Part shown: positions 5,578 through 60,483 of the stretch, piece after piece
Numbering within the stretch: position 1 is the stretch's first letter
How the letters are laid out: every line of letters starts with the position of its first letter
Source of the DNA: a virus
IMG/VR virus record: IMGVR_UViG_3300029258_001308
Coordinates: 1-64,000 of that record
Reading direction: 5' to 3' (one strand)
Length of the DNA stretch: 64,000 bases
The notes under the pieces: generated by a model
The model's database searches: none
What the model saw: the letters and a program-made list of their open reading frames with translations, nothing else
What the model was told of the DNA's origin: nothing
Program-made: the position numbers and the translations under genes

Positions 5578-6459
5578 CTACGAAGGCCTTACGATGTCGC
5601 CCGTGGGACACAGAAACGCCTGGAGCTGGTCAGTCTGGTACCCGGCTGCTCCCTTGTGACCACCCCCGCCGTTGTCCTTGGCGATGAGAGACACGTCGAC
5701 ACTGGCCGAGTACAGCGAGATGGTCCACTGCTTGCCGTCCCAGTAGAAGGGGCAGAGAATGTCGTAGCCTTCCCGCAGAGCCCCGGTCAACGATCCTGGG
5801 CCCCCGAATCCTTCCGATCCGCAGAAGGCCAGGTTCATGGCCAGGACCTTGTAACCCGCGAGCTCGGTCTCGAACGCGATCTTCCTGTAGTTCTCGAAGT
5901 ACTTGGTCCTGTAGCCCACGATCGTGCGTCCCATCTCGAGCACGGTCGAGACCATGGAAGAGTCCGTCCACCCGATGAGCTCGTCCCATATCCGCGCCTC
6001 AGGAGCGTGCTCCCACATCTCGAGGCCGGCATGGAAGAAGGCGGACTCGTCCCCATGCTTCCACGTCCAGGTGTCCCGGTCCGAGATCAGAGCCAAGGCT
6101 CGCGGGACCTCCAGCGTCTTCTCGAAGAAGCGGTAGGCCAAGACGCAGCCAGCGTCCCCGTCGCTAGCACGGATGCCGTCCAGCTTCTCCCAGGGAGTCC
6201 CGATGGCCCGGTCGTACGAGGTCTTGTGATGGTCGATCCAGATGATGTCCTTCGTTCTCTTCATCAGAGCGATACGATCATCGTCCTTCTGAAACGAGAA
6301 GTCCACGATGAACACCTTCTCACCCAGAGCCACCTGGTGATGAGGGACCGGGTCAGCATATCGCATCGGGATGCACTTGATGTCCTCGCTCCCCGAGAAC
6401 CTCCGCACCACGGCAGCAGCAGCTCGACCATCCTGGTCATCGTGATAGAAGCAGATCAT
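5578..6459 (-). CDS. DHH-family phosphoesterase (NrnB-like)
   Basis: 293 residues from ATG 6459, preceded by GGAGGG. Motifs of the DHH/DHHA1 superfamily are clear: FYHDDQDGRAAAAVV at the N-terminus, IDHHKTS in the middle and GGGGHKGAAGY near the C-terminus. Members are metal-dependent hydrolases acting on oligoribonucleotides, cyclic dinucleotides or ssDNA. The length fits the NrnB-type oligoribonuclease group rather than RecJ. In the phage it could degrade short RNA to recycle nucleotides or destroy host second messengers. The substrate cannot be told from the sequence. Confidence 0.8.
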   Translation of the reverse strand: MICFYHDDQDGRAAAAVVRRFSGSEDIKCIPMRYADPVPHHQVALGEKVFIVDFSFQKDDDRIALMKRTKDIIWIDHHKTSYDRAIGTPWEKLDGIRASDGDAGCVLAYRFFEKTLEVPRALALISDRDTWTWKHGDESAFFHAGLEMWEHAPEARIWDELIGWTDSSMVSTVLEMGRTIVGYRTKYFENYRKIAFETELAGYKVLAMNLAFCGSEGFGGPGSLTGALREGYDILCPFYWDGKQWTISLYSASVDVSLIAKDNGGGGHKGAAGYQTDQLQAFLCPTGDIVRPS

Positions 6460-43527: not shown

Positions 43528-44406
43528 TTAGTCGAGGGGTCCCAGGTCCTTCCCCAGGTCCTGGACCTCGTCGAGGGTTGCAGCCACGGTCCCGTGATGT
43601 CGGACAACAGCGGCCGCTGCGAGGTTGGCGAACTTCACGGCCTCGGGTAGAATGACCCCGCGCTCAAGCTGAACAGCCAGAGCAGCGATCACGGTATCTC
43701 CCGCGCCCGTTACGTCGAACACTTCTACCTGATGACCGGGACAGTGGCCACTCGAGCCCTGGTCATACCAGAAGATGCCGTTGGAGCCGTCGGTCACGAT
43801 GGCTCGTGTCTCCCATAACTTGGCCAGAGCCTCGGCGCACTCGTCAGCCCGGGCCATCCGGTAGCGGTGACCGAGCATGACGCGTGCTTCGTGCTTGTTG
43901 GGCTTCAGGTAGGTCAAGCCCTTCAGAGCGGGGGTGATTCGCTTAGGATCAACGATCGTTGGAATCCCTCGGCTCTTTAGGGACTCGATCAGCTCGTCTG
44001 TAACTATCCCGTGCTGGTAGTCCTGAAGGATCACGAACCTTGTATCTTCGATCAGGTCCTCAGGTATCTCAGTGATGCCCGTGTTCTCTCTGGCCCTGTC
44101 GATACGACACACTACTTGACGGTCGGCTACTATCCTCTGCTTGACCGTAGTCTGACCGGGGATTCGAGTGAAGTCGCACTTGAGTAAGGACTCGAGTCGG
44201 AGCCCGTCCTCGTCGAGGTCCCAGGCTCCAAGGAGACGTGACTTGCCTCCGAGAGTCCGGACATTCTGAGCCACGTTGGCCGCACCGCCAGCCATGTACT
44301 CGTGGTGCTTTGGATAGAGGACGGGTACGGGAGCCGTGGGCTCCAGCCTTCCCGCCATGTGGTGAGAGAAGATGTCCAGGATAGCATCGCCGATTGTCAG
44401 GATCAT
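43528..44406 (-). CDS. HldE/RfaE-type PfkB sugar kinase
   Basis: 292 residues from ATG 44406, which overlaps the upstream stop (ATGA); an upstream extension is not needed. PfkB signatures: GDAILDIFSHHMAGRLEPTA with APVPV, GGAANVAQNVRTLGGKS near the N-terminus and DVTGAGDTVIAALA near the C-terminus. The closest known type is the kinase part of HldE/RfaE, which phosphorylates D-glycero-D-manno-heptose-7-phosphate on the way to ADP-heptose. It follows a heptosyltransferase-like gene, so the two may supply and attach a heptose-like sugar. Confidence 0.8.
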   Translation of the reverse strand: MILTIGDAILDIFSHHMAGRLEPTAPVPVLYPKHHEYMAGGAANVAQNVRTLGGKSRLLGAWDLDEDGLRLESLLKCDFTRIPGQTTVKQRIVADRQVVCRIDRARENTGITEIPEDLIEDTRFVILQDYQHGIVTDELIESLKSRGIPTIVDPKRITPALKGLTYLKPNKHEARVMLGHRYRMARADECAEALAKLWETRAIVTDGSNGIFWYDQGSSGHCPGHQVEVFDVTGAGDTVIAALAVQLERGVILPEAVKFANLAAAAVVRHHGTVAATLDEVQDLGKDLGPLD

Positions 44407-45359
44407 GAGTACGCCCTCAGCATCTGAATGGCCATAAGGAAAACCTGCTCTGGCTCGATCGCGTTGAGAATCGAGCACCCAGACTGACGACACTTGCCAG
44501 AAATCTCTTTGGGAGGAAGCAGCTGACACGGAGGCTTGCAGCCTTCACGATGCTCGGTGATCGGGAAGATGGGATGCGTCTTTCGATACGGGTGACAGGT
44601 AACCCATCCGTTAGTGGACCCGAATAGAGATAGAGTCGGGACATCCAAGAAAGATGCAAAGTGAAGAAGCCCCGAGTCGGGTGTGATCATGAGCGAGCAG
44701 CGTTGAATAAGAGAGGCCACCTTCGTGAAGGAGAGCCGCATGGCCAACGCTCCGGGGAAGTTCCTTAGACGACGTGGTACATGGTCGAACGAGATGATGT
44801 TGAGGCCGGCCTTGTCGAGAAGCTCGGCCAGCTTCCTCCACTTCTCCGGCGGCCAATTCCTGAGAGGATCGGTTGAGTACGGTTCGAGCCCTACGACGAT
44901 GCCGTGCGTGTTGACCCAGTTACCGTCGAGCCAGCCTTGAGCCCAGTTCTTCTCGGCCTCGGTTACCCGATAGCAGTCGACCACAAGGGGAACGTCGTAG
45001 ATGTCCGAGGCCTCACAGAAACATCTGATCCTTGACTTGTGTCGTTTCTCTCGGAACTCCTTCTCATGTGCCCAGCCGGGACAGTACAGGGAATAGGTGG
45101 CGTCGGCATCATCGGTCTCTTTGAGGTATGGGTATCGCTCGGAGTCGAACGGTCCGTCCTGGGGGCGGCGACGATGGATCGAGGTCTCTGACCAACGATC
45201 TACGTACGGGCAGTGCTCGACGAGTTCTCGGTAGGTCCGGATGCCGACGTACGTGATCTCGACATCAGGCTGTCTAAGCTTCCAGCCCTTGGCCACCGGG
45301 AGTGTGCAGAGAACGTCGCCTAACCCGCCGGCTTCTCTGAGGAGTCGCACCTTGTACAA
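44403..45359 (-). CDS. glycosyltransferase family 9 (heptosyltransferase-like)
   Basis: 318 residues from TTG 45359, chosen for its GGAG at the right distance; GTG 45350 is the alternative. GT-B fold marks: EAGGLGDVLCTLPVAKGWK at the N-terminus, VVGLEPYSTDPLRNWPPEKW in the second domain and ITPDSGLLHFASFL, the GT9 signature. Such enzymes transfer heptose from ADP-heptose to a glycan. A short Cys-bearing C-terminus (PPCQLLPPKE, GKCRQSGCS) is extra. Overlaps the radical SAM gene by 40 nt. Confidence 0.8.
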   Translation of the reverse strand: MYKVRLLREAGGLGDVLCTLPVAKGWKLRQPDVEITYVGIRTYRELVEHCPYVDRWSETSIHRRRPQDGPFDSERYPYLKETDDADATYSLYCPGWAHEKEFREKRHKSRIRCFCEASDIYDVPLVVDCYRVTEAEKNWAQGWLDGNWVNTHGIVVGLEPYSTDPLRNWPPEKWRKLAELLDKAGLNIISFDHVPRRLRNFPGALAMRLSFTKVASLIQRCSLMITPDSGLLHFASFLDVPTLSLFGSTNGWVTCHPYRKTHPIFPITEHREGCKPPCQLLPPKEISGKCRQSGCSILNAIEPEQVFLMAIQMLRAYS

Positions 45360-46756
45360 GACTGTTCTCCAGCTCTCTCTGTCTGAGCCTGAGCATGGCG
45401 TGGCTCAGCGTTGATCCAATCGCTCTGGGTGGTCTCGCTAAGAATCCAAGCACATTCCTTGAGCCAGACCTTCTTGAACATACAGAGTGCAGGGTCGGAG
45501 TTGTGGATGTCTCCGGTGTGTTGCTTCGAGACTACTCGACACCCTCCACCACAGTAGTTCCGTGCCCAGCACGATGGACACTTCGTTCGACAGTACCACC
45601 TGTTGTCCTTCCACTCTTCTCGAGCTTGCTCGCTGATTCCATAGGCTAGACTTCCGATGGGGTCCACGCCCTCACGGTGACACGGCAGGATATCACCGCT
45701 AGGATTCACGGCGTAGAATCCCCAGGCAGCTCCACACTCGGAAGGCTGTGGCATTCTCCGAGCCAGCCGTCTCAGCGTGGCTTCGAAGTGGAAGAACCGA
45801 GGATTGTAGCTGGTCTTCCTACGAGACACGAACCACTCGGCGGCCTCGTAGTACTGTCTATTGACAAGCTCTCGATGTTCGTCCGAGGTCCCGAAGATCA
45901 TCTGCTTCTCGCCGATATTGTGGCAGGAGGTCTCGGATAGATTCAGAGGCTCGACGGATACTGATCCCGCCATCCCCTTCCTCACCAACTCGTTGAGGAA
46001 CTCTAACCTCGAGACCAGCTGAACGTCGTCGGCCCCGAATGTTGCTCGAAGCGTGGTCCTCTTAGCCAAGCCAGGATAGTCAAGCATCTTTTCGAGGGCC
46101 TGCATCGTGCTCTCCCAGGAATTGAAGGTGTCTCTCCTGGCCGGGCGATTCTTGTTGTGGATGTCCTCAGGTCCATCTATCGAAATGATCATGGAGAAAT
46201 TCTGCTGACTGAGGAAGTCGAGCTTTTCCTTATCGAGACATGTCCCGTTAGTGGTGATATGAAGATTCAGGTACGACTGCCTCATCTCGGCTAATGATCG
46301 TGCGTACAGGGCTCCTTCCTTGACAAGCTTCCACGACTTGGGAAGAGTGGGCTCCCCACCGAAGAAAGAAATCCCGAAGCGGCCCCTCTTACCAAGCTGA
46401 GGAATACCGTTGAAGTAGTGATCGATCGCCTGTTGAAGAACAGTGGGTGTCATGTACTTGAGTTCCTTCGTCGCGGAGTAGTGACGAACGAAGCAGTAAC
46501 GACATCCGAGATTGCAGTCATGGCAGACGTTCAGACAGAGCTGTACCGGGAACGGCCTGACGAAGTAAGGAAAGTTGGGGGCGTCGAAAGAAGCAGCCGG
46601 CTCGGTATCCCACTCCTCTAATTCGAAGAGCTCCATCGAGTTGGGATCGTAAGCTAACCTCTTCCCATGGGTGCGAAGAACGTGTATCCTAGCGTTCTCG
46701 GCGGGGTATCGTTTGAGGCGGGGGGACTTCTCCACCGCAGGGTTCAAGGACTGCAT
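45320..46756 (-). CDS. SPASM-domain radical SAM peptide maturase
   Basis: 478 residues. The radical SAM Cys triad is C81, C85 and C88 (CNLGCRYCF). GISFFGGEPTL and LNLHITTNGTCLD follow, then IISIDGPEDIHNKNRP, as in sulfatase-maturase-like enzymes. The C-terminal SPASM region has ECGAAWGFYAVNPSGDILPC, then CRTKCPSCWARNYCGGGCR and a late Cys for two extra 4Fe-4S clusters. Members modify peptides, including thioether linkage of Cys. The gene lies 36 nt after a tail tip gene with an exceptional Cys array, the obvious candidate substrate. Confidence 0.85.
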   Translation of the reverse strand: MQSLNPAVEKSPRLKRYPAENARIHVLRTHGKRLAYDPNSMELFELEEWDTEPAASFDAPNFPYFVRPFPVQLCLNVCHDCNLGCRYCFVRHYSATKELKYMTPTVLQQAIDHYFNGIPQLGKRGRFGISFFGGEPTLPKSWKLVKEGALYARSLAEMRQSYLNLHITTNGTCLDKEKLDFLSQQNFSMIISIDGPEDIHNKNRPARRDTFNSWESTMQALEKMLDYPGLAKRTTLRATFGADDVQLVSRLEFLNELVRKGMAGSVSVEPLNLSETSCHNIGEKQMIFGTSDEHRELVNRQYYEAAEWFVSRRKTSYNPRFFHFEATLRRLARRMPQPSECGAAWGFYAVNPSGDILPCHREGVDPIGSLAYGISEQAREEWKDNRWYCRTKCPSCWARNYCGGGCRVVSKQHTGDIHNSDPALCMFKKVWLKECAWILSETTQSDWINAEPRHAQAQTERAGEQSCTRCDSSEKPAG

Positions 46757-46792
46757 TGTTCTACTCTCCTTTCTTTCTCAACGCCTCTTTAG

Positions 46793-49700
46793 TTAGGGCG
46801 AGGAGATTGAGTCAACCTTGGCATTGTCAGTGTAGCCAGGTCCTTGTACATTCAGACCGAGAGAGTGGCTCGAGTACTCTCCAGCGACGGCCACGCTTCG
46901 AACAGCCGAGTGTCCGTCGAACTCGGCCTTGACCTGAGTTGGTGTGATGATGAGCTTCAGCGTCCCCGATTTTGAGAAGAGATCAGTCGTCCAGCTTCCT
47001 GCCCACACGGTCACGTCGGCGTAACCCGAGACCGAGATTCTAGCACCCGTGCGTCCCTCGAAGTACCATTCAGGTTCCTCTCCTTGCCACCGGCCCTGAA
47101 TCAACGCCCACGCGGTCAAACCCTTCCCGCCTTTGACCGAGCCCCAAGCAATATCTGCACTGTAGATCGGGTCGTAGGGATAACCAGAGTATTGTGCGAT
47201 ATAGCACGGGAGTGTGAAGGTGGCTGATTGATCGGGGTTCCTTCTCTGATCCGCCCAACTAAGGCTGCCACTCGAATTCCCCGCCTTGAGCTTTACCTCC
47301 CCGCCGACGATTTCGAAGACGGGTGTCTCGGCGTCAATCCAGAGTGAGAGGTCACCGCTGAATCCATCGTTCGGCCACGTCCCGTACTCGTAAGGCTCGG
47401 TCGAGACACCCTGAGTCTCAGCTGATCCGGAGGTACAGTCGTGATCACAGGTCGTCTCGCATCCGGTGGACTCGCACTGCGACTCGCAGTACATCTCGCA
47501 GCAGGTCTCTTGACCAATGGCTCCGCCCGGGAGCATGATCATGCAGAAGACCATGCAAGCCTGGAGTGCGCAAGGAGGCCCGCCCTGATCTGCGGCCGCG
47601 GCGCAGAGTAGTTCGCACACGTTGACGCAGGACCCTTCACACGCATACTCGCATGTGAACTCGCAGCCGGTCTGAGTCCATATCTCGCAGACCGACTCGC
47701 ATCCCGTCTGACACTCGGTCTCACAGGCGGTAAGACATCCGGCCCAGACAGGAAGACGAAGCTCGAACTCGATCTCGTCCATCTTGGCGTCAGCGCCTGC
47801 ACCGGGACTGTGCCTCAATCCTACTACGTCGCCTTTCTGACCAGAAAGGAAGTAGTCGGTTAGATCGAGAGAGACCCAGTCTCCACGCTGAAGGTCGAGC
47901 TCGGTTAGATAGGTCTTGAAACTTACTCGTCGACGAAGACGCCTCCGCATAGCCAGCCAGAACGACGCGATGCTAGAGACGTACTGCTTCTGGCCGTAGG
48001 CCCAGAAGTCGTATCGCTCGGCCCTTCTACCATAGGCTGCTTCAGCCGCGGTGTCCCGAACCGTCAGCTCCTTCTCTTCACCACGCTCGTTCCATACTGC
48101 CACGATCTCCGAAAGGACGTAATCGAAGTCGTCCCACGAGAGCTTCACTGAATCAACCGTGATCTCGTCGTCACCCGTGATAGTAGCGGCGACAGACCCA
48201 GCGCCGTTCCTGAGGAAGCCGATAGTAGCGAGACCGTCTTCCCACTTGAACTCGGACCGAGCCTGGAAGCCCATGTCAGCACAGAGGTCCATGAGGTTTC
48301 TTTGACTGCCGAGCGCGAAGCCGAACCGCAGCCAGCCAGTCGCGGACTCAACCGATGAGAATGCAGACGTGTCTATCTCCGAGGCGCCCACTCCTCCCCA
48401 GGTCTCGAGGAACTTCTTGATAACGGCGGCGGGATTCTCGATGACAGTTCCCGACCCGTCTCCCACGCTGTCGAGTCCCTCGATGTCAACCTTGATGTCG
48501 TTGGTGGAAATCTGGTAGCCCGGGATGAACTTCGGTGGATTGTAGAACGTGATGGTGGTACAGTTGTGGCCGAGAATCCCGACGAACTGCGAGTCATTGA
48601 GGTTCACATCGTAGTGTTCAGGGTGGATTACGATGTCGCGGTCTTCCTCGGAATCAGCAACCTGACCGATGAGATACGCGTCTTCCCAGTTCGGATTCGG
48701 GATTCCGGGTACTCCACCGCCAAGGCCGATTCGATTGAGAACCGTCTCGGTGTCGGTCTGGAGCGATAGTAGCTTCTTCCCGTGAACATAGACGTTGTTG
48801 ACCCGGGCCGACGGGTACTCGTTCACTATCCAGGTGTACTGATCGAGCAGCCGATAGCACTCAGAGCCCGCGTCATGAGCCGTAGGAATCCCGACGATCG
48901 AGTACCCATGTCCGTAGGGAAGAGTATAGACATGACCGACACATGTAAAAGTATCGCCTTCGATGAACGTCGGCCCTTCAAGCATGAACTCGGGCATGTA
49001 GTAGATGGTCTTCGAAGTGCCGTCGTATCTCCAGATCTTTCTCCACTGCCACCCCGCTGCAGAGTAATCGGGTCTCGGAGTATTGGAGACCGAGATGGGA
49101 ACTTCTCTGAAGGCGGGATTGATGTACCCGGGGACCCAGGTCTTCACGTAGAACCCGGTGTACGCGTTGTCCCCGTCAGCGGGAAGGTCACCGTCTATGA
49201 AGGCGCCGTTGTACTCCGGGTGAGAGCCCTTGACCGTACCAGTGTAGATCGCTTCGCCTCTAGCTAGAACCGTGAAGGTTCGGCCGTCGATGGTACCTCG
49301 AACTACTTCCTCATTGATCCGAAGAGTAAGCTCGGTCCCGGGGGCCATATCCTCGAAACCTTCGATGAACCAGTTATCGATCTGAGATGCCGATACCGGG
49401 TTCATCAATCGCCCAATCTTACCCATTGTGACGTTCACAGGCTCGACCATCTGCGGCTTCCCAACGCAGATGGGAATCATTCGACCCTCGTGATTCTCGG
49501 CGATGTCGGGGAAGTCATCGATCGTGGCCAGCACTCCTACTGTACGATTGTAGTGCACAGCCTTGGAGACGAGGTCAAGCGTGATCTTCCTATTGTTCTC
49601 GTCCCAGTCGAATGGCCCGGAGACGAACCCGTCGATCAGTGTGACAAGGTCAGTCTCGAGAAGCCCGGCCTCGGTCCAGAACTGATACATCGCGACAGGC

Positions 49701-50707
49701 TTGTCCTGGACTTCGATGTCGTCGAAGTAGGAGAGGAGTGAGCGATCGTGGTCCTGGAGTTGGACCTTCATGTCCGTGACCGGGAGCTGTTGATTTCCAC
49801 GGACAATGGCTCGGTCCATGAGACCCCAGTTCACGACTCGTGCGTCCATTCTTCCAACGGCCGCCTTGACTTGGTAGTCGTCGAACGCCTCTCCTATAGC
49901 GAGGAAGGTCTGGCTGATGTTGCCGTCGAACTCGGTCAACCACGGACCGCCGCCATTGTAGTTGCCGACTGCGAGGTTCTTCGTTCCAGTCTGTCGGATG
50001 TGCGTCCCGAGGGAACCCTGCCAAGTTATTGTCTGAGCTACGCCATCGACGTAGATCACGACCTGTTCGTCGGGGGTGGCCTGAGTGAGGTCAACAACAA
50101 TAGCGATGGAGTGCCACGCGTTCAGGGAAGGAGCGGGGAAAGATGCACCCGCCGTGTGGATAGTTGTGCCGACTTTCGTGTCGAGGTTGAACCGGAGGAC
50201 AGTTGGCGTGAGGAAGAAGAGGAGCCAGCCGGTCCCGTTCCCCATCTCCGCGAAACATCCAGCGTCGTTCTCTCCATCGGATAGCGCCTTGGCGTTGATG
50301 ATGAAGGTGAACTTCTGCTCGTTGTCGAGATCGAACCACGCGTCCGTCTTGTCGGTATGGTAGTTGCTTGTACCTCCCGTGAACTTCAGACTGGTCGTAC
50401 CGCCGAATGGATCAGGTGTCGAGGTGTCCCAGATACCGCTGGCTGACAGAGTTAGATCACGAGCGGCCGTACCTTCCTCGTTGTCGGCTGTGACGCCGGA
50501 ACCTTCGTCGAATTTCCACATAGCCCCATCGAGTGAGGCATAGTCTGGAAGGTCAGCCCAGTCGAAGTTCCACGGTACAGTGAACTCGGAATCCGAGAAC
50601 CACCGTGTCCCCAAGGCACCGCCGGCCATGAGCTTGACAAGATTACGAGGCTTAGCCCCAGACGACAGCGCTTCAGCCTGGGCCCCAGATGAAAGTGTCC
50701 GGACCAC
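46793..50707 (-). CDS. tail tip/receptor-binding protein with Cys array
   Basis: 1304 residues from GTG 50707, overlapping the upstream stop by 1 nt. Layout: an LamG-like concanavalin domain about 60-300 (GAMWKFDEGSG ... NAWHSIAIVVDLTQA); a hub-like part about 300-980 (MKVQLQDHDRSLLSYFDDIE, LQRGDWVSLDLTDYF); residues 991-1091 with 21 Cys, many in C-x3-C steps (CLTACETECQTGCESVCE, CEFTCEYACEGSCVNVCE); and a second jellyroll-like C-terminal domain. The LamG and end domains suggest carbohydrate or surface binding. The Cys array is unlike any ordinary tail protein and is discussed in the findings. Confidence 0.75.
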   Translation of the reverse strand: MVRTLSSGAQAEALSSGAKPRNLVKLMAGGALGTRWFSDSEFTVPWNFDWADLPDYASLDGAMWKFDEGSGVTADNEEGTAARDLTLSASGIWDTSTPDPFGGTTSLKFTGGTSNYHTDKTDAWFDLDNEQKFTFIINAKALSDGENDAGCFAEMGNGTGWLLFFLTPTVLRFNLDTKVGTTIHTAGASFPAPSLNAWHSIAIVVDLTQATPDEQVVIYVDGVAQTITWQGSLGTHIRQTGTKNLAVGNYNGGGPWLTEFDGNISQTFLAIGEAFDDYQVKAAVGRMDARVVNWGLMDRAIVRGNQQLPVTDMKVQLQDHDRSLLSYFDDIEVQDKPVAMYQFWTEAGLLETDLVTLIDGFVSGPFDWDENNRKITLDLVSKAVHYNRTVGVLATIDDFPDIAENHEGRMIPICVGKPQMVEPVNVTMGKIGRLMNPVSASQIDNWFIEGFEDMAPGTELTLRINEEVVRGTIDGRTFTVLARGEAIYTGTVKGSHPEYNGAFIDGDLPADGDNAYTGFYVKTWVPGYINPAFREVPISVSNTPRPDYSAAGWQWRKIWRYDGTSKTIYYMPEFMLEGPTFIEGDTFTCVGHVYTLPYGHGYSIVGIPTAHDAGSECYRLLDQYTWIVNEYPSARVNNVYVHGKKLLSLQTDTETVLNRIGLGGGVPGIPNPNWEDAYLIGQVADSEEDRDIVIHPEHYDVNLNDSQFVGILGHNCTTITFYNPPKFIPGYQISTNDIKVDIEGLDSVGDGSGTVIENPAAVIKKFLETWGGVGASEIDTSAFSSVESATGWLRFGFALGSQRNLMDLCADMGFQARSEFKWEDGLATIGFLRNGAGSVAATITGDDEITVDSVKLSWDDFDYVLSEIVAVWNERGEEKELTVRDTAAEAAYGRRAERYDFWAYGQKQYVSSIASFWLAMRRRLRRRVSFKTYLTELDLQRGDWVSLDLTDYFLSGQKGDVVGLRHSPGAGADAKMDEIEFELRLPVWAGCLTACETECQTGCESVCEIWTQTGCEFTCEYACEGSCVNVCELLCAAAADQGGPPCALQACMVFCMIMLPGGAIGQETCCEMYCESQCESTGCETTCDHDCTSGSAETQGVSTEPYEYGTWPNDGFSGDLSLWIDAETPVFEIVGGEVKLKAGNSSGSLSWADQRRNPDQSATFTLPCYIAQYSGYPYDPIYSADIAWGSVKGGKGLTAWALIQGRWQGEEPEWYFEGRTGARISVSGYADVTVWAGSWTTDLFSKSGTLKLIITPTQVKAEFDGHSAVRSVAVAGEYSSHSLGLNVQGPGYTDNAKVDSISSP

Positions 50708-51072
50708 TAGCCCACTACCTCCAGTTGAAAGCGGATAGACCAGCCAGAGTCACGATCCTCGGTGAAGTCGAGAGTCGCATTGACGAACTTCACTGTCCAG
50801 TCAACATCGTTGTGATCTCTGAACGTGAACTCCTCCATGATGCCATCGGACGTATTCTCGAAGAAGTCCTCGATGTCATCCTTCTCGTCGTTGGTCAGAT
50901 AGGTCAGACGGATGTCAAGGTACTCGACCTTGATACCCTTGTCGTAGTTGAACCTGGTCCCGCCTCGAGTCCGGCCGAGCACTTGGAACATGGTATGCCT
51001 GTTCATGTTCCCGAACTCTGGAGAACGAGAGATGTCTTTGTCGACGGCACCTTTGATGAAATGGCATCCCAT
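50707..51072 (-). CDS. minor tail protein
   Basis: 121 residues, between the tape measure and tail tip genes, where distal tail proteins usually lie. Beta-rich sequence (YLDIRLTYLTNDEKDDIEDF, DWTVKFVNATLDFTED) fits the distal-tail class. No specific family is named. Confidence 0.6.
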   Translation of the reverse strand: MGCHFIKGAVDKDISRSPEFGNMNRHTMFQVLGRTRGGTRFNYDKGIKVEYLDIRLTYLTNDEKDDIEDFFENTSDGIMEEFTFRDHNDVDWTVKFVNATLDFTEDRDSGWSIRFQLEVVG

Positions 51073-51075
51073 CGT

Positions 51076-53598
51076 TTATATCCTCCCCCGCTTCCGAGCC
51101 GTGGCAATCTCGGGGATGATGACTGAACGAGTCAGCTCTCTCCCGACAGGCTGGCCAAGCAGCGTGAGATTGATGTCACCTTCGTAGTGGGTCGTGATGT
51201 GAGTCGGAGAATGATGCTCCGTAGTACCACGACCCGGTCCTGCCTCGGCGCCAGGCTCCCGTGTAGTGGGGCTTCCGGCGATCGAGACGCCAAGTTCGCC
51301 AAGGCCTGCCAGCTCTTCCCTCATCTTCGCAATGAAGGCTCGCATCTGAGCCTCAGCTTCTGGTAGCCCAACAAGCTCGACGTTCCACTGAAGATGTCTC
51401 TCAGCAAACGTCTTCAGATCAGAGAGGTCCTTCCGGATATTCTCGAAGGTATGCTGTGCCTCTTCCAGCAGTCCCTTAGCGCCCTCCTCTTGCTCCTCCC
51501 AGGCGATCTCGCCCAGTTCCTGCAGGTCCTTCATTCCCTCGATGGCTGCCTCTCTGAAGTTCTCGACGATGCCGTACCCAGCCTCGCCTTCTGCTATCTG
51601 GACATCAGCAATGTTGCGATAGAGTTCGGCCGACTCCTGCTGAAGTCGAGCGAATTCATCGTAGTCGGATCGAGCCAGTGCAGCGGCAGCTTCTTGAGCA
51701 CGGGTTCTGGCCAGATAGTACTCAGAGACTGCTCGTGTTCCTTCGTCAAGGCCGCCCAACTGCAGGTCAAGGATGGAGCGATCGATGGAACGAGACCAGT
51801 CGGCGTGTCGTTCCTGGAGGTTCTGAAGTCTGTCCTGATGTCCCTTGACCTCGTCGAACTGTTCTTTCAGCGCGTCCCGAAGATAGCTTATCTGGTCGAT
51901 GTAGTTTTTCTTGAAGTCCTGCGTGGCTCTTTTCCAGTGATCTCTCTTCATGGCAAGAACCGCGGCAGCATGTCGCTTCTGTTCTGCGACGAGATTCGCC
52001 TCAGCGTCAGCTATCTTTCTGAGGTACTCCTTCGCAAGTTCTGCGTTCTTCTTTCGTGAAGCCATTCTCTTGATGAGCTCGATGTTGCCTTCCTTCATGG
52101 CCTTGTTGAGAATCTCTTCCTGACGGAGAGCCTCGGCTCGTGCAGCCGCCTGAATCTTGGCTACGTCCTCGTGAGCCTTCATCTCCTTCGGGGCCTTGGC
52201 TATCAGATCGGCGATCTTTTCGTCAAGCTGGGTGTACTTGGCGATGAGCGACCCGACAGCAAAGCCCGCTGCTCCTACCGCGATTCCCATAGCTGCCCAA
52301 GGATGGGCCTTCGCTAGGTTGACCAGGTGAGGCAGGCCGTCCATGGCTGTGAAGGTCAGGCGGAGCAGCTTGTCGGTGAGCCAGACGACCTTCCCACCGT
52401 ACTTGGCTATGAAGCTCACCCCTGTCGAGAGCGCGAAGGTCACGGCCGCGATGGACAAGGCTGTTGCACCCCAAGCCGCAATAGTCGCAGCGTTCTCCTT
52501 GACCCAGCTCATCCACTCGGCCTTGTTCTTCTCTACCCAGTCGGTGAATTCGATGAGCTTCGGTAGAAGAGCCTCGCCGAGTGTGATCATGACGTCCATG
52601 AAGAACGACTTGATCTTCTTCAGCGCACGGCCAGCGGTCTTGGCCATCTTTTCGTACGCCTCTGCCGATGCACCTTGGCTCTTGACGTTTGCTTCGATGA
52701 TACGACCGAACTCGTCAGCCTGCTTTCCAGCCAGGGATGACACGGCTGTGAACGCACGAACATTCGGGAAGAGGGCAGCCAGCGCTTCAACATTATCACC
52801 AGCTGCCTCTTCTATCTCACGAAGAGCGACGCCAAGACCCTTGGACTTGAGAGCTGTAGCCGAGAGCTCGACGCCGAGTTCTTGGGCAATCTCCTGGGCT
52901 TCTTTCGTCGGAGAGATGAAGGTAACGATGGCCTGCCTGACCGCAGTCACTGCTTCGTCGAATTGGATACCACCCTTGGTCAGGGTAGCAAGCGAGGCCG
53001 TCAGCTCTTCGAGTGGGATGCCGGCGGTAGCAGCGATACCCGTCACCCGACCCAACCCGGAAGCCAGCTGTGGGAAGGTCAGCACGCCCTCTTTGACCGT
53101 GGAGAAGAAGATGTCCGAGACCCGCTCAGCCTGATCAGTACCCATCCCGTAGGCGTTGAGTGTCTGGACGATCCCACGAAGAGACGTGTTCACGTCGGTG
53201 ACGCCCGCAATAGCCGCGCGGTTCGCGACGCTCAGGAGCTCGATGGACTCGGTCGCATCAACACCAGCTGACAAGGTGTTGTAGAGCGCGGTGGTCATCG
53301 TACTATGTGACTCGCCGAATTCGACCGACAGCGATCGGACGCCGTCCTCGAGATTCTGCATATCGACGAGTGTCGTGTCCACCAGTGTAGAGACCTCAGC
53401 CATCCCGGTCTCGAAGGAGGTAGCAAAGTAGAGCGCTGCACCTCCGGCTGCACTTAGGGCTAGGGCCATCTTCTTGGAGGCGCTAGCGACTTTGTCAGCC
53501 GTATTCTCGACGGTCTTGGCCACCTTGTCGAAGTTCTCGTAGAACTCCGAGGTGTCAGCGGTGACCTCGGCGACCAGCTTTTCCACGAACGTTGGCAC
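51076..53598 (-). CDS. tail tape measure protein
   Basis: 840 residues from GTG 53598, backed by AGGAGAGGAAG; the frame upstream of it is not protein-like. The N-terminal part matches the TIGR01760-type core (GMAEVSTLVDTTLVDMQNLE, VNTSLRGIVQTLNAYGMGTD, GIPLEELTASLATLTKGGIQ). It contains hydrophobic helices about 375-475 (ATIAAWGATALSIAAVTFAL, AAMGIAVGAAGFAVGSLIA) and long coiled-coil stretches. It sets tail length and may help DNA entry. The start lies inside the chaperone frameshift product. Confidence 0.9.
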   Translation of the reverse strand: MPTFVEKLVAEVTADTSEFYENFDKVAKTVENTADKVASASKKMALALSAAGGAALYFATSFETGMAEVSTLVDTTLVDMQNLEDGVRSLSVEFGESHSTMTTALYNTLSAGVDATESIELLSVANRAAIAGVTDVNTSLRGIVQTLNAYGMGTDQAERVSDIFFSTVKEGVLTFPQLASGLGRVTGIAATAGIPLEELTASLATLTKGGIQFDEAVTAVRQAIVTFISPTKEAQEIAQELGVELSATALKSKGLGVALREIEEAAGDNVEALAALFPNVRAFTAVSSLAGKQADEFGRIIEANVKSQGASAEAYEKMAKTAGRALKKIKSFFMDVMITLGEALLPKLIEFTDWVEKNKAEWMSWVKENAATIAAWGATALSIAAVTFALSTGVSFIAKYGGKVVWLTDKLLRLTFTAMDGLPHLVNLAKAHPWAAMGIAVGAAGFAVGSLIAKYTQLDEKIADLIAKAPKEMKAHEDVAKIQAAARAEALRQEEILNKAMKEGNIELIKRMASRKKNAELAKEYLRKIADAEANLVAEQKRHAAAVLAMKRDHWKRATQDFKKNYIDQISYLRDALKEQFDEVKGHQDRLQNLQERHADWSRSIDRSILDLQLGGLDEGTRAVSEYYLARTRAQEAAAALARSDYDEFARLQQESAELYRNIADVQIAEGEAGYGIVENFREAAIEGMKDLQELGEIAWEEQEEGAKGLLEEAQHTFENIRKDLSDLKTFAERHLQWNVELVGLPEAEAQMRAFIAKMREELAGLGELGVSIAGSPTTREPGAEAGPGRGTTEHHSPTHITTHYEGDINLTLLGQPVGRELTRSVIIPEIATARKRGRI

Positions 53599-53766
53599 GC
53601 TTCTTCCTCTCCTTATCGTCCTCACGGTTGCGCAGGGAATGGTACGCAACCATGTACTGCTGGCTAGTCAACGGCAGCGAGTAGAATCTCTCGAGGTCTA
53701 TCTTGAACCGATCGCATGTCGCAAGAACAAGATAGAGCGTCGTCCTACCGCTGCCGTCTATTCCCC
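53555..53766 (-). CDS. -1 frameshift extension of the tail assembly chaperone
   Basis: After the GGG codon at 53766-53764 (sequence GAG GGG GAA TAG), a -1 slip gives a frame running 69 codons to TGA 53557-53555, containing LYLVLATCDRFKIDLERFYS and LPLTSQQYMVAYHSL. It overlaps the tape measure start by 43 nt, the classic position of the longer tail assembly chaperone (gpGT-like). The slip site G GGG GAA is not the best-known heptamer but allows perfect P-site re-pairing. Confidence 0.7.
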
Positions 53767-56089: not shown

Positions 56090-56728
56090 CTATACAATCC
56101 CCAGTTGTGGGACGTCGTTGTGGTAGTTGGCGAGGAGACGGTCCACCGCTTTGTTCCCGGTCGTCCCCCCTGTTTCTGTCCCGCCAGATTCCTCGAGAGT
56201 GAACGAGAAGTCGCCAAGCTTCGCCGACTTGATGTCACCCTCGGTCGAGATACCCTCTGTGATGTCGTCCATCTTCTGAGCCGCCAAGATGGCGCAAGCC
56301 TTCGCGATGTTTCGGGGAGTCTTTTTCCATCCCCACTTCCCGGTGATCTGGACGTTCTGATTACCCTTGGGCCAGATCGGAGCATCGTCTCCCCACCGAG
56401 CACTTGCTCGCAGAGAGATGTCGTACTCGAGCGTGACCCTTCGTTCGTAGACCTTGTAGTCGCTAGAGTCTACGTCAGTGGTCGAGCCATCGGCCGGGTC
56501 CACGATCACGATGGATGTGATCTCGAGACACCTCAGCAGAGTGAGCTCCGGGAACAGAATGTCCGAGTGCCCAGTCCCATCGAAGTTGAAGGTCTTGTCG
56601 TCAGGCTCGAAGTGATCATCGCACTCTTCGTCGATCATCTCCATGGCCTCACGGATGGCTTGCTCGAACTCCTTGTTTGTCTCACCAGAGTCGTGAAACT
56701 TTCGTACGTCTGCTATTCGGCAGTACAT
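56090..56728 (-). CDS. head-tail connector (adaptor)
   Basis: 212 residues. Helical N-terminus (NKEFEQAIREAMEMIDEECD), a beta stretch and a helical end (NIAKACAILAAQKMDDI), typical of gp6-like adaptor proteins that bind the portal ring. The first gene of the connector set. It is separated from the capsid gene by the sugar-transfer cassette. Confidence 0.75.
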   Translation of the reverse strand: MYCRIADVRKFHDSGETNKEFEQAIREAMEMIDEECDDHFEPDDKTFNFDGTGHSDILFPELTLLRCLEITSIVIVDPADGSTTDVDSSDYKVYERRVTLEYDISLRASARWGDDAPIWPKGNQNVQITGKWGWKKTPRNIAKACAILAAQKMDDITEGISTEGDIKSAKLGDFSFTLEESGGTETGGTTGNKAVDRLLANYHNDVPQLGIV

Positions 56729-57765
56729 GGGACGCCCTCCATGATCTCCACTACCGCGTCAGCCACCTGCTCCGGAGTGATGAGCTCGTAGCAGGGGGTG
56801 TCCCGAAAGCACTTCTTCCTGTAGCATCCAAGGCAGTCAGAGTCGGGAACTAGCTTGACGCCTCGGCCATACATATCGATGTCGTCGGCTGGAGTAGAAC
56901 CGAAGATGGTCACGACTCTTCGTCTCAGAGCAATACCCAAGTGCATGCCGAACGAATCCATCGTGACCACGCAAGAGCATGAGGCCACCCAGCCAACGTA
57001 GTCCATGATCGATCGTCTCTGTTCTTGCATCTCCGGCTTGTAACCTCGCTCCTTCAGGAGCTCAGCTAACTTCTCCCAGCCTTTCCACTTCTTGAAGAAT
57101 CGATCTCCGGCCATGTAGTTCAGGCCGACCTTGCCAATTTCCTCCTTGGCCTTGAAGCCCGTGAAGAACGGGTAGTCGTCAGGCTCCTCTACTCCTATCA
57201 TCTTAGCACAGAGCTGCTGGTAGGTCAAGCAGCTCAGTCTCTTGGCTTCGTCGTCGATGCCGAGCTGGAAGGCCTCGCGAGCAGAGTCGGACATGGCGGC
57301 GGTGTTCCCGTACTGATCCATGCCGAACCCGTATCTCTCCTCGGCCTCGACAGCCACGGCTATGGCCGTACTCTCAGGCTCCTTATCCAAGCAGATCACG
57401 GCCTGGAACTTCATGACCATGATCGAGACCTGGCTCTTCCAGTTGTAGGGAATCAGCTTGTCAATCCCCTTGATTCTTCGCAGAATCTGAAACCCTTCGT
57501 CTGAGGTCAGCCATGTGATGTGGCAGTCGCTCCCGTACTTGGCCCTGATCGGACCAAGCAGAGAGGCGGTTCTGACCACATCCCCCATGGCGGCAAGCTT
57601 GATAAGCAGGACTCGAGTTCGAGTCGGCCTATAGTGCTTGCATCCTAGGCATCTCTGCCCGAACTTCTTGTGGGGCCAGCAAGGCTTGAACCCCTTGAAG
57701 TAGCGGCAGTCCGTGAGGATGCCCTCGAACTTGGCAACGTCTGCTAGTCGTCTACCGGTACCCAT
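56713..57765 (-). CDS. glycosyltransferase family 9-like protein with Cys-rich head
   Basis: 350 residues. The GT-B start RVLLIKLAAMGDVVRTASLL appears after a ~45-residue extension with Cys (DCRYFKGFKPCW, RCLGCKHYRP). The donor-site motif is VTMDSFGMHLGIAL, a variant of GT9 PDSG, and a second Cys set (SDCLGCYRKKCF) follows. It belongs with heptosyltransferases, but the acceptor may differ. Overlaps the connector gene by 16 nt. Confidence 0.75.
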   Translation of the reverse strand: MGTGRRLADVAKFEGILTDCRYFKGFKPCWPHKKFGQRCLGCKHYRPTRTRVLLIKLAAMGDVVRTASLLGPIRAKYGSDCHITWLTSDEGFQILRRIKGIDKLIPYNWKSQVSIMVMKFQAVICLDKEPESTAIAVAVEAEERYGFGMDQYGNTAAMSDSAREAFQLGIDDEAKRLSCLTYQQLCAKMIGVEEPDDYPFFTGFKAKEEIGKVGLNYMAGDRFFKKWKGWEKLAELLKERGYKPEMQEQRRSIMDYVGWVASCSCVVTMDSFGMHLGIALRRRVVTIFGSTPADDIDMYGRGVKLVPDSDCLGCYRKKCFRDTPCYELITPEQVADAVVEIMEGVPCTAE

Positions 57766-58583
57766 CTGTCTGGATTAGTCTCCATCCAAGCCCGAAGGCG
57801 CCCTTGGAACTTCTCCTCGTCCTGCAGCTGAAGCTGCCGACGCTGCTGGGAGTGCAGAGGATTAGCCGAGTCTCGAGACCCGCCACCCTCGGCCTCCATG
57901 TGCCACGACCTGACCCAAGGAAGATACAGACATTTGAACCCGGCGAAGTAGAGCCGGAGTGAAACGTCTGTCTCCTCCCGATGGCCCAGGTTTGTACACC
58001 ATGTAGCGAACCCGCCCACGTCTTGGAGAGCCTGCTTCCAGTAGATGAACCCGCCGTGCATGTGGCAAACTTCGATGGGCTCATTGTGGTCGATCCAGTG
58101 CTGCTGCATATCGTAGGGCTCGAGGATCATCCCCGTCTCGATCTTCTTCCGGGCAAACCCGTTCTGACTGGGACCCTGATTCAGTATTCTCCCACGATGC
58201 GCGTTGAGGAGACATCCTCCAGCCGCTGCCACCTCTGTCCTGTCCTGATCCACGATGAAGTCGTGCAGAAGCTGGATATAGTCGCGAGGAACAACTATAT
58301 CATCCTCGTGACGGATGCAGAGCTCGGCCTGGGCCGCCTCCATGGACTGCTGATAGGCGAAGGGTATTCCTTCGTTGGTACCACGAACCACGTTCACCCT
58401 GACCCCGTCATCCTCCAACATCCTGATCAGCAGTCTGATATGGTAGTGCGAGAGCACGTCGGGGTCCGAGTCGTCAACGATGACCAGCTCCCAGTCCTTG
58501 TGGGTCTGGAAGACAAGGCTAGCCAGAGCGGCGGACAAGTAGTTCGGCCGATTGCGAGTGATGATATGGAAGGACACTCTCAT
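57744..58583 (-). CDS. glycosyltransferase family 2
   Basis: 279 residues. GT-A fold: VSFHIITRNRPNYLSAALAS, VIVDDSDPDV, the DxD-like RHEDDIVVPRDY, and HREETDVSLRLYFAGFK as the acceptor/base loop. It transfers a sugar from a nucleotide donor. No membrane helix is visible, so it acts in the cytoplasm, perhaps on capsid or tail protein. Overlaps the GT9 gene. Confidence 0.85.
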   Translation of the reverse strand: MRVSFHIITRNRPNYLSAALASLVFQTHKDWELVIVDDSDPDVLSHYHIRLLIRMLEDDGVRVNVVRGTNEGIPFAYQQSMEAAQAELCIRHEDDIVVPRDYIQLLHDFIVDQDRTEVAAAGGCLLNAHRGRILNQGPSQNGFARKKIETGMILEPYDMQQHWIDHNEPIEVCHMHGGFIYWKQALQDVGGFATWCTNLGHREETDVSLRLYFAGFKCLYLPWVRSWHMEAEGGGSRDSANPLHSQQRRQLQLQDEEKFQGRLRAWMETNPDRWVPVDD

Positions 58584-58585
58584 AG

Positions 58586-59185
58586 CTAGCTCCTTGTCAC
58601 TGCGATTAGGATGAAGTCCTTACCCTTGGTATACTTCACCCTGTTGACCTCGAAGTCGTTGGGAACTCCCTCGAAGAGTCTCTTCACGGACTCCTCTGTT
58701 ACATGCCATTCGTGCGAAGGGTTGTCAACCATGGCCGGATCGTACCCCTCCTTCGCGAATGGCATCGTGATGACAACCTTCTTAGAGGCTACCCGAATAG
58801 CCTCGAAGACAACCTGTCTAGCATCCTCGATCGAGATGTGCTCCAGCATCTCGGCGATGACCACGGTGTCGAACTCCTCGTGATGGAAGGGAAGCCCAAA
58901 GGTGACGTCCATACAGAAGTACTTGCAGTCAGGGTATCTGAGCTTGGCTGCTCTGAGTCTCTCTCGATCAATGTCAACACCGACCCGAACTCCCGCCAAC
59001 CTTCCTAAGATGTAGCCCTCTGCACAGCCGAGATCGAGTATCGACCCCTCTGCTTTTCGGATGATCCAGTTGACCCTTTCCCTCTGGGCCTCTGATATAT
59101 AGCCACCATCATCCGACGGAGGCTGACGAATCTCGTCCAGCCTGGCAACATCAAGGTGGACCCGATAGTCTTCCGCGTCACTCAC
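58586..59185 (-). CDS. SAM-dependent methyltransferase in the sugar cassette
   Basis: 199 residues. SAM motif ILDLGCAEGYILGRLAG, VGVDIDRERL and the post-motif FDTVVIAEMLEHI. Placed between a radical SAM gene and a GT2 gene, it may methylate the sugar that the cassette attaches. Distinct from the methyltransferase at 6464. Confidence 0.8.
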   Translation of the reverse strand: MSDAEDYRVHLDVARLDEIRQPPSDDGGYISEAQRERVNWIIRKAEGSILDLGCAEGYILGRLAGVRVGVDIDRERLRAAKLRYPDCKYFCMDVTFGLPFHHEEFDTVVIAEMLEHISIEDARQVVFEAIRVASKKVVITMPFAKEGYDPAMVDNPSHEWHVTEESVKRLFEGVPNDFEVNRVKYTKGKDFILIAVTRS

Positions 59186-60483
59186 TTGTGTCTTCCCTCA
59201 TCTCGCATATAGTCCATCAGCCTCTTGCGGGCCTGGACTAAGGCGGGGACGTCCATCTCGGGAGTCCTAGCCGCGAAGCCTTCGTTCGTATCCTCCCAAC
59301 CCAGAAGCCAGTATCGAGACCAGTCCCTTGAAAAGATCTCGATCTCGAACTCCTCGGGATGATCGTAGATGGGAGAGCCAGGATATGGCTGGAACGTCGA
59401 GAGCGTGCAGCGATCAGGCTGAACCCTCTCGATGAAGTCTACCGTATCCTGGACCGAGCTCGGAGATTCTCCCGGAAGCCCGATGATGAAGTAAGCTTTT
59501 GAGACCATGCCGACTTCCTTAGTCCATGCGATGGCCTGCTCAGCTTGCTCTATCGAGACACCCTTCCGGATATGATTGAGAATCCGCTGCGACCCGGACT
59601 CCACTCCGAACGCCACCTCCACGCAACCCGCATCACGGAGGGTGACGAGATTCGGTCGGGTGGTAAGATCGCATCTCAAATGCGTTCTGAACTTCAGCTC
59701 CGTCTTCCGGAACTGGTCGCAGATCGCCGTCAATCTCTCGGGCTTGAGTCCGATGATCTCGTCGACAAGTCGCACTTCTGTCACACCAAGTATCTTCTTC
59801 ATCAGCCGCAGCTCTTCGTATACCCACTCGGCAGAGTGGAGCCTGACCTTCCCCTCCCAGGTCGCATTGGAACAGAAGGCACAGCGATACGGACAGCCAC
59901 GAGATGTGGAGATACATGAGGCTCGCTCTCCTTCTTCTACGAGTTCATAGGAGACAGCCGAGTCTTCAGCGATGTCCTGCCAAGCGAGGTGCGGAAGTGA
60001 GTCAAGCTCCTTGATGCTCTCCCGCTTCGTGTTGACATAGATCGCTCCCCATCCATCCTTGTAAGCCAAGCCATCGATCACGTCCAATGGCTTCCCGGCT
60101 ACTATCTCGGACAAGGTCTTCTCGCCTTCTCCGAAGACGGCGTAGTCGAAGTCGGTCTTGAGGAGAGTATCCTTCGCAAGCACTGAGGCGTGCGCCCCTC
60201 CTATGATTCGATAAGCCGAGGAACGATGCTCCTTCAGCCAGGTGGCCACTCGGGCCGCGTAACCCATGTCCCCGGTGGTGGCCGAGACACCGAAGTAGTG
60301 AGCCTCGGGAATGACGTCACCCCACTGCTCCTCGGTGTATCTTCCTGACAGATCAACGATGCTGACTTCGCAGTCAACGGTCCGTCTGAGATACGCAGCT
60401 AGAGCGAGAAGACCTAGAGGAGCCTGGAGCCGCTCGTTCCAAAGCATCTTGTTGGGAAGCCTGATGAGAGCTACTTGATTCAT
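59182..60483 (-). CDS. B12-binding-type radical SAM protein
   Basis: 433 residues from ATG 60483 (TGATG overlap with the upstream gene). The N-terminal 150 residues resemble a cobalamin-binding Rossmann domain (PLGLLALAAYLRRTVDCEVS, YRIIGGAHASVLAKD, FDYAVFGEGEKTL), then the radical SAM triad CPYRCAFC near 193, FGVESGSQRILNHIRKG and YFIIGLPGES. Class B enzymes of this plan methylate unreactive carbons or rearrange sugars and peptides. Here it may modify the sugar or the acceptor. Confidence 0.8.
   Translation of the reverse strand: MNQVALIRLPNKMLWNERLQAPLGLLALAAYLRRTVDCEVSIVDLSGRYTEEQWGDVIPEAHYFGVSATTGDMGYAARVATWLKEHRSSAYRIIGGAHASVLAKDTLLKTDFDYAVFGEGEKTLSEIVAGKPLDVIDGLAYKDGWGAIYVNTKRESIKELDSLPHLAWQDIAEDSAVSYELVEEGERASCISTSRGCPYRCAFCSNATWEGKVRLHSAEWVYEELRLMKKILGVTEVRLVDEIIGLKPERLTAICDQFRKTELKFRTHLRCDLTTRPNLVTLRDAGCVEVAFGVESGSQRILNHIRKGVSIEQAEQAIAWTKEVGMVSKAYFIIGLPGESPSSVQDTVDFIERVQPDRCTLSTFQPYPGSPIYDHPEEFEIEIFSRDWSRYWLLGWEDTNEGFAARTPEMDVPALVQARKRLMDYMRDEGRHK

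Follow-up and report, generated by a model that had tools for sequence, protein, structure and literature searches.

Why would a virus carry the gene for a radical SAM enzyme of the peptide-maturing kind immediately behind the gene for what appears to be its tail tip? The question is raised by the first 64,000 nucleotides (hereafter the window) of the IMG/VR virus record IMGVR_UViG_3300029258_001308, which is 76,805 bases long in all; window positions are used throughout. A protein of 1304 amino acids (aa) encoded there carries a dense array of cysteines (Cys), and a gene coding for a radical SAM enzyme with a SPASM domain lies 36 nucleotides (nt) downstream on the same strand, a spacing given in the initial annotation of this DNA and confirmed by the coordinates of the open reading frames (ORFs). 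We consider, with a probability of roughly two in three, that the locus is a module for the maturation of a virion protein, in which the enzyme would link the Cys of the array through thioethers and a GT9 glycosyltransferase, in this enzyme clade, would then glycosylate the same protein.

Pairing of the cysteine array with a maturase gene

The 1304-aa protein contains 28 Cys in total, and the 21 Cys which had been noted within residues 991–1091 were found again, exactly, on recount (Cys 991 at 47735–47737, Cys 1091 at 47435–47437). The protein has 14 C-x3-C steps, and Glu or Gln directly follows 12 of the 21 array Cys. When its own residues were shuffled 5000 times, the densest 101-residue stretch held 5.8 Cys on average and never more than 11, while C-x3-C steps numbered 0.6 on average with a maximum of 4. 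No Pfam, PHROG or NCBIfam model matches the array, and arrays of the matching type are found in register in the homologues L217, L227, L138, L335, L316 and L277/L367. This virus is also represented by another record (IMGVR 3300017987_000608), in which the same pair of array and enzyme is present.

The protein as a whole matches no Pfam or PHROG family, and neither a sequence search of solved structures nor a tblastn search of the phage collection gave a match; the NCBIfam TipJ model NF040662 reaches only 14 bits (E 0.013), below its cut-off of 140. Its backbone (residues 270–988) shares 27–35% identity with six other proteins from viruses or metagenome-assembled genomes (MAGs), each of which also bears an array. 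A low-confidence structure prediction of the backbone (pLDDT, the predicted local distance difference test, of 60) was compared with the PDB using Foldseek, and the 15 best matches to this model were all phage tails, tail tips or baseplates, including those of lambda J, T5, JBD30, Chi, T1, Sf11 and DT57C. On the minus strand the genes follow each other in the order tape measure, small conserved gene, 1304-aa protein, SPASM enzyme, GT9 protein and heptose-kinase-like protein, and the order of the first three is also conserved in L364, L365 and L366. Gene order and modelled fold together support the identification of the 1304-aa protein as a tail tip protein.

The initial annotation proposed that array and enzyme should be looked for together across phage genomes. 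Viral contigs were scanned for DNA patterns encoding repeated C-x3-C steps, with no use of the enzyme, and genuine arrays, meaning diverse quartets in a real ORF, were separated from simple DNA repeats. The first scan pattern (seven Cys in C-x3-C) returned mostly such simple repeats, and was retained for L066, L095 and L098 while the others served as controls. A Radical_SAM match was found in 20 of the 23 genuine-array records of the first set and in 21 of 23 further records from a stricter, complete scan, a count from which two cellular genomes and four listed records lacking a genuine array are excluded. Combined, 41 of 46 array records carry a radical SAM protein, compared with 3 of 50 control viral records taken from the same scans for their simple-repeat matches (Fisher p = 6e-18, in a test which ignores shared descent). 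In the great majority of positives the enzyme gene either directly adjoins the array gene or lies no more than about 8 kb away. In G001 the clear radical SAM genes are some 75 kb distant from the array, and G008 and G075 are positive through a Pfam match below its cut-off only. As for the five array records lacking the enzyme, four are short (5–27 kb) or break off close to the array, and one is long (G022, 35.6 kb).

In the reverse search, seeded with the enzyme clade of the window, 27 close viral relatives were considered, and 20 of them have a strict array within about 9 kb. Other close relatives lie near looser Cys-rich proteins (L400, L401 and L413), and the sequence of L412 is cut at the enzyme. 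A strict array is near 9 of 42 distant relatives, most of these nine carrying another type of Cys array. The pairing of array and enzyme is thus well supported from both directions.

The enzyme keeps company with the array across very different carriers. With the arrays masked, array proteins fall into many unrelated groups, which besides TipJ-like tips include a PF09327 tail-tip fibre protein, a PHROG tail protein, a protein with an Ig domain and an M23 peptidase, and a Hoc-like head decoration protein in Peptoniphilus. Within the window enzyme clade the enzyme is constant while the backbone varies; the partner held in common is the array, and not the backbone. A search with the window backbone returned ten loci, the window virus included. 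An array or Cys-rich region is accompanied by the enzyme in the window virus, L345, L346, L348, L349, L350 and L351 (7 kb away in the last); in L344 and L347 the backbone bears an array at which the sequence ends; and in the 13 kb of the most distant homologue, L352, both the array and a SPASM enzyme are missing, a joint absence which, as a single case, points weakly toward the pairing.

Across 38 array proteins, the array follows the grammar C-[E/Q]-[T/S/V]-[S/G/A/T]. Neighbouring Cys are four residues apart in 74% of steps, and Glu or Gln stands at +1 of Cys in 86% of quartets (60% outside the stretches favoured by the search pattern). Seven of eight homologous array pairs keep 93–100% of their Cys positions, with identity at other residues down to 33%; the exception is the Peptoniphilus pair L284/L310, which keeps 75% of its Cys. 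In L319/L331 each of the 44 Cys is kept, with 33% identity over the rest of the array, and half of the Cys codons differ by the synonymous change between TGT and TGC. Because Cys is kept despite diverged surroundings and silent codon changes, these comparisons indicate translation of the arrays and selection on their Cys. None of twelve array proteins inspected by eye opens with an obvious signal peptide.

The enzyme and the bonds it may form

The window enzyme has a radical SAM domain (PF04055, E 3.5e-14, with CxxxCxxC at residues 81–88) and a SPASM domain (TIGR04085, 46 bits, above the cut-off of 27). Its best-scoring NCBIfam families are the SCIFF maturase TIGR03974 (188 bits, equivalog cut-off 425) and the PapB ranthipeptide maturase NF047865 (170 bits, equivalog cut-off 340); lower scores were obtained with QhpD (TIGR03906, 133 bits, cut-off 453) and the CXXX-repeat maturase TIGR04115 (46 bits, cut-off 350). 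On these scores the enzyme was rejected as a member of the SCIFF, PapB and CXXX maturases. A profile built from 40 array-linked enzymes finds CteB (5WGG) as its best solved relative (E 4e-93), and CteB is also the top Foldseek match of an AlphaFold2 model of the enzyme (pLDDT 85). The PapB model is matched by 40 of the 40 array-linked enzymes and the sulfatase maturase model by 39. In a phylogenetic tree the window enzyme belongs to a fully supported clade of 12 members, separate from the true SCIFF maturases, and the array-linked enzymes as a whole split into several separate clades, so that the idea of a single array-linked family was discarded. Matches to the enzyme in the phage collection are mainly gut fragments, three of them being SCIFF maturases (L124, L126 and L127; TIGR03974 766–817 bits). 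Judged by sequence and model, the enzyme is of the ranthipeptide-maturase type yet outside the named families, resembling the thioether-forming CteB and PapB while forming a clade of its own.

Three characterised enzymes offer precedents for what it might do. CteB forms a thioether from Cys32 to Thr34 of CteA at a non-alpha carbon, and QhpD joins Cys to Asp or Glu in a protein subunit (PMC8326336); PapB forms links from Cys to Asp or Glu in motifs that recur along its substrate, and it also takes Cys-Xn-Asp with n of 0–6 in both in-line and nested arrangements (PMC9413430). By analogy, the tip protein would be made in an anaerobic, reducing cytoplasm where disulfides could not form, and the enzyme would cleave SAM and abstract hydrogen at a non-alpha carbon in a residue beside an array Cys, whose sulfur would become bonded at that carbon with a loss of 2 Da per bond. 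Since Glu or Gln is common at +1 and Thr, Ser or Val often stands at +2, either could be the acceptor; these would be the likeliest candidates, the former recalling the Cys-Glu link of QhpD and the links of PapB, the latter the Cys32-Thr34 link of CteA. Repeated along the array, the reaction would yield a ladder of small thioether rings, to whose protein GT9 would then add heptose. The product would be a stiff, reduction- and protease-proof and possibly sugar-coated stalk at the end of the tail which contacts the host. The initial annotation had likewise proposed a cross-linked, rigid or protease-resistant tip: its view of the array as substrate of the maturase survives the computable tests, whereas cross-linking, thioether chemistry and stiffening are features which we infer from the precedents.

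The strongest competitor to thioether formation concerns the reaction itself. The enzyme could modify the array through alpha-carbon sactionine links, C-C or cyclophane bonds, epimerisation, or oxidation of Cys as carried out by anaerobic sulfatase maturases. SPASM enzymes as a group perform all of these, a sulfatase maturase (4k36) and other RiPP (ribosomally synthesised and post-translationally modified peptide) maturases are also strong structural matches, and the near-universal match to the sulfatase maturase model points the same way. We regard such chemistry as unlikely, though deserving of attention, given that the best match in both sequence and fold is a non-alpha thioether maturase, that SCIFF and PapB head the family scores of the window enzyme, and that the conserved target residue is Cys itself, as thioether donors would require.

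A looser connection between the two genes is considerably less probable. The array could use disulfides or bind a metal or Fe-S cluster, for which its Cys-rich tetrads would be suited, with the enzyme serving for example a glycan cassette, and the two being frequent among phages that infect anaerobes; the glycosyltransferase genes of the window are interspersed with a second radical SAM gene, of the B12 type, which illustrates that radical SAM enzymes also serve glycan functions in this virus. This sits badly with the scarcity of any radical SAM gene in the control records, with the adjacency and frequent overlap of the array and enzyme genes, and with the recurrence of the pairing among several enzyme clades and unrelated backbones; the arrays without an enzyme are, moreover, mostly of different composition. 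That the enzyme instead matures a separate short RiPP precursor, as is usual in SCIFF and PapB systems, the tail array being a coincidence, is very improbable: such a precursor, which the initial annotation had named as one of the findings that would refute its proposal, was not seen in the 76.8-kb record, where the only ORFs with at least four C-x3-C steps encode the tail tip protein and the enzyme, where the short Cys-rich ORFs seen look zinc-finger-like or antisense and include no convincing SCIFF precursor with six Cys in 45 residues, and whose relatives have the array protein, not a short peptide, as the constant neighbour.

Several observations weigh against a thioether-linked array matured by this enzyme. 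Five of the 46 array records lack the enzyme, no enzyme is encoded near certain cellular arrays of different composition in Planctomycetes and Myxococcota, and several records are near-duplicates (for example L209/L239 and L227/L329), so that the p-value overstates independence. Glu or Gln is tied to the preceding Cys, which it still follows in 58–69% of cases at spacings other than four, and keeps no fixed distance to the next Cys; the known NxxC and C-x3-D geometries therefore do not map directly onto the array. A geometry of the NxxC kind, as in NxxcA, with the acceptor at position -3 relative to the following Cys, was rejected for the same reason, and is also disfavoured by the lack of Glu/Gln enrichment before the first Cys of the array. 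Every family score of the window enzyme is below the equivalog cut-off, and the bond type can therefore not be read from the family. Finally, no clear RiPP leader or RiPP recognition element was found. Having weighed these points, we still favour a thioether ladder on the tail tip protein. With slightly less assurance, we also favour a wider form of this proposal, in which tailed phages from many lineages, along with certain anaerobic bacteria and archaea, would share a modular Cys-array tag that could be grafted onto any exposed virion protein and that dedicated radical SAM enzymes would turn into a thioether ladder, heptosylated in some clades.

Gene neighbourhood and distribution

The features of the locus are collected in Table 1.

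Table 1 Features of the array locus and its neighbours (window positions).
Feature	Positions	Strand	Basis or remark
Tape measure protein	51076–53649	-	PHROG tape measure families, best E 1e-58
Small tail gene, conserved, flanked by the tape measure and tail tip genes	50707–51072	-	phmmer relatives likewise placed in L362, L363, L364, L365, L366
Tail tip (TipJ-like) protein, 1304 aa; array between hub domain and C-terminal domain	46793–50707	-	ORF
TipJ-like backbone, residues 270–988	47744–49900	-	Homologous in six further viral/MAG loci
Cys array, residues 991–1091	47435–47737	-	21 Cys, mostly C-x3-C
Radical SAM/SPASM maturase, 478 aa	45320–46756	-	PF04055, TIGR04085; proposed modifier of the array
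CxxxCxxC cluster motif, Cys 81, 85, 88	46493–46516	-	Nearly invariant in 40 array-linked enzymes
Seven-Cys SPASM domain, Cys 341, 359, 393, 396, 402, 406, 425	45482–45736	-	TIGR04085, residues 341–425; nearly invariant in 40 enzymes
GT9 heptosyltransferase-like protein	44403–45359	-	PF01075 E 6e-17; start overlaps maturase gene
Heptose-7-phosphate kinase-like protein (HldE/RfaE domain I type)	43528–44529	-	TIGR02198 210 bits (cut-off 345); PfkB E 2e-33

The GT9 gene and the wide spread of arrays over unrelated virion proteins were both absent from the initial annotation. A GT9 gene follows the maturase gene in most loci of the window clade (the window itself, L357, L358, L359, L360, L361, L363, L364, L365 and L366). 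In the array set as a whole, GT9 was found in 12 of 49 searched records, compared with 3 of 50 controls, and its role as a universal partner was rejected, as it goes with the window enzyme clade and its near relatives. Alignment of the GT9 proteins reveals an invariant C-x3-C motif near the C-terminus; the heptosyltransferases which modify autotransporters are also GT9 enzymes with a Cys motif. GT9 probably glycosylates the tip protein, and the adjoining heptose-7-phosphate kinase-like gene likely supplies the sugar donor for this step. Elsewhere in the window, between the tail and capsid genes, a glycan cassette (56713–62651) comprises two genes with three GT9 domains between them, a GT2 protein, a methyltransferase and the B12-type radical SAM protein mentioned above, which is HpnJ-like (59182–60543).

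Adjacent pairs of array and enzyme genes are also present in named cellular genomes, namely Clostridium tepidiprofundi, Peptoniphilus, Vallitalea and Bathyarchaeota, all of which we take to be anaerobes. Large array proteins with an enzyme and no obvious signal peptide occur in L378 (Clostridium tepidiprofundi), L381 (Vallitalea) and L377 (Clostridiaceae M8S5), each adjoined by a small sigma-factor-like gene which by eye resembles the UviA/TcdR types (4589–5119 in L378, 12725–13252 in L381); these loci are possibly bacteriocin- or tailocin-like. Arrays with an adjoining enzyme are likewise found in archaeal bins, in a Thorarchaeota MAG (L385) and two Bathyarchaeota MAGs (L383 and L384). A tape-measure-like gene immediately precedes the array in L385, which in view of this gene is probably a virus. 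The Pro/Ala- or Gly-rich C-x3-C arrays of Planctomycetes and Myxococcota (L278, L283, L298, L302, L303 and L304), which have no radical SAM gene nearby, probably represent a different, secreted class.

Variants of the arrangement were also encountered. Two to four consecutive radical SAM genes are present at the array loci L376 (G003), L370 (G077) and L369 (G011), which suggests modification in several steps. A very irregular protein with 45 Cys is encoded at 5715–6815 of L066, a viral contig of 292 kb whose clear radical SAM genes are far from the array. A second grammar, consisting of CNCNYC(T/A)C repeats, was seen in phage tail-fibre-like proteins (L427:13030–13716, L445:10185–10925, L446:12224–12799 and L460:11640–12161), one of which by eye ends in an S74-chaperone-like domain; distant SPASM enzymes are encoded 0.8–3.6 kb from these loci, often two per genome.

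Relation to known systems

Neither this class of enzyme nor a target built of Cys repeats is new as such; what appears to be new is their use on virion proteins, their wide distribution, the C-[E/Q] grammar and the association with GT9. Searches of open-licence papers for radical SAM enzymes in connection with phage tails, virions, Cys-rich proteins or ranthipeptides found no such system described, an absence which is weak evidence. The regular Cys ladders next to such enzymes in this virus and in dozens of unrelated ones suggest a chemical hardening of virion parts by phages. If the thioether ladder is real, it would be, to our knowledge, the first enzymatic, non-disulfide array of cross-links of this kind in a virion. 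Viruses would then be using the chemistry of small-peptide natural products to build their outer machinery, which would account for an unannotated class of Cys-rich virion proteins and for many radical SAM genes of viral metagenomes that have so far lacked an explanation, and would offer a natural source of enzymes which cross-link long protein arrays. The system occurs in the cultured isolates Clostridium tepidiprofundi DSM 19306 and Clostridiaceae bacterium M8S5, and its arrays and enzymes are short enough for co-expression.

In backbone fold, according to the low-confidence model, and in gene position, the window protein is like the TipJ and lambda J tail tips, from which it differs by the additional Cys array after the hub domain. 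The nearest parallel to the array itself is found in the CXXX-repeat systems (maturase TIGR04115, targets TIGR04114 and TIGR04117), for which no describing paper was found in the open-licence literature. These also have a Cys at every fourth residue and a neighbouring SPASM gene, and the tail tip protein, with its 14 C-x3-C steps and the enzyme gene 36 nt away, shares these two features of a CXXX target. Sister phage systems are full members of TIGR04115 (L098 with 386 bits and L209 with 486, the cut-off being 350); the L209 array matches TIGR04114, and L098 adjoins phage head genes. The window array differs in being located inside a large virion protein, in its C-[E/Q] grammar and in the GT9 gene alongside, and its enzyme is not a member of the family.

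Among the SCIFF/ranthipeptide maturases, CteB (ScfB family) is the best solved relative and forms non-alpha thioethers, including that from Cys to the Thr at +2, but the substrate in the window is not a Cys-rich peptide of 45 residues, and the window clade stands apart in the tree. PapB (NF047865), whose model matches all of the array-linked enzymes, acts on a short peptide with Cys-X3-Asp motifs. QhpD provides a precedent for thioethers placed in a subunit of a working protein and not in a natural product (PMC8326336); there, a few specific links are made in a small enzyme subunit, whereas here a repeat array would be modified within a virion.

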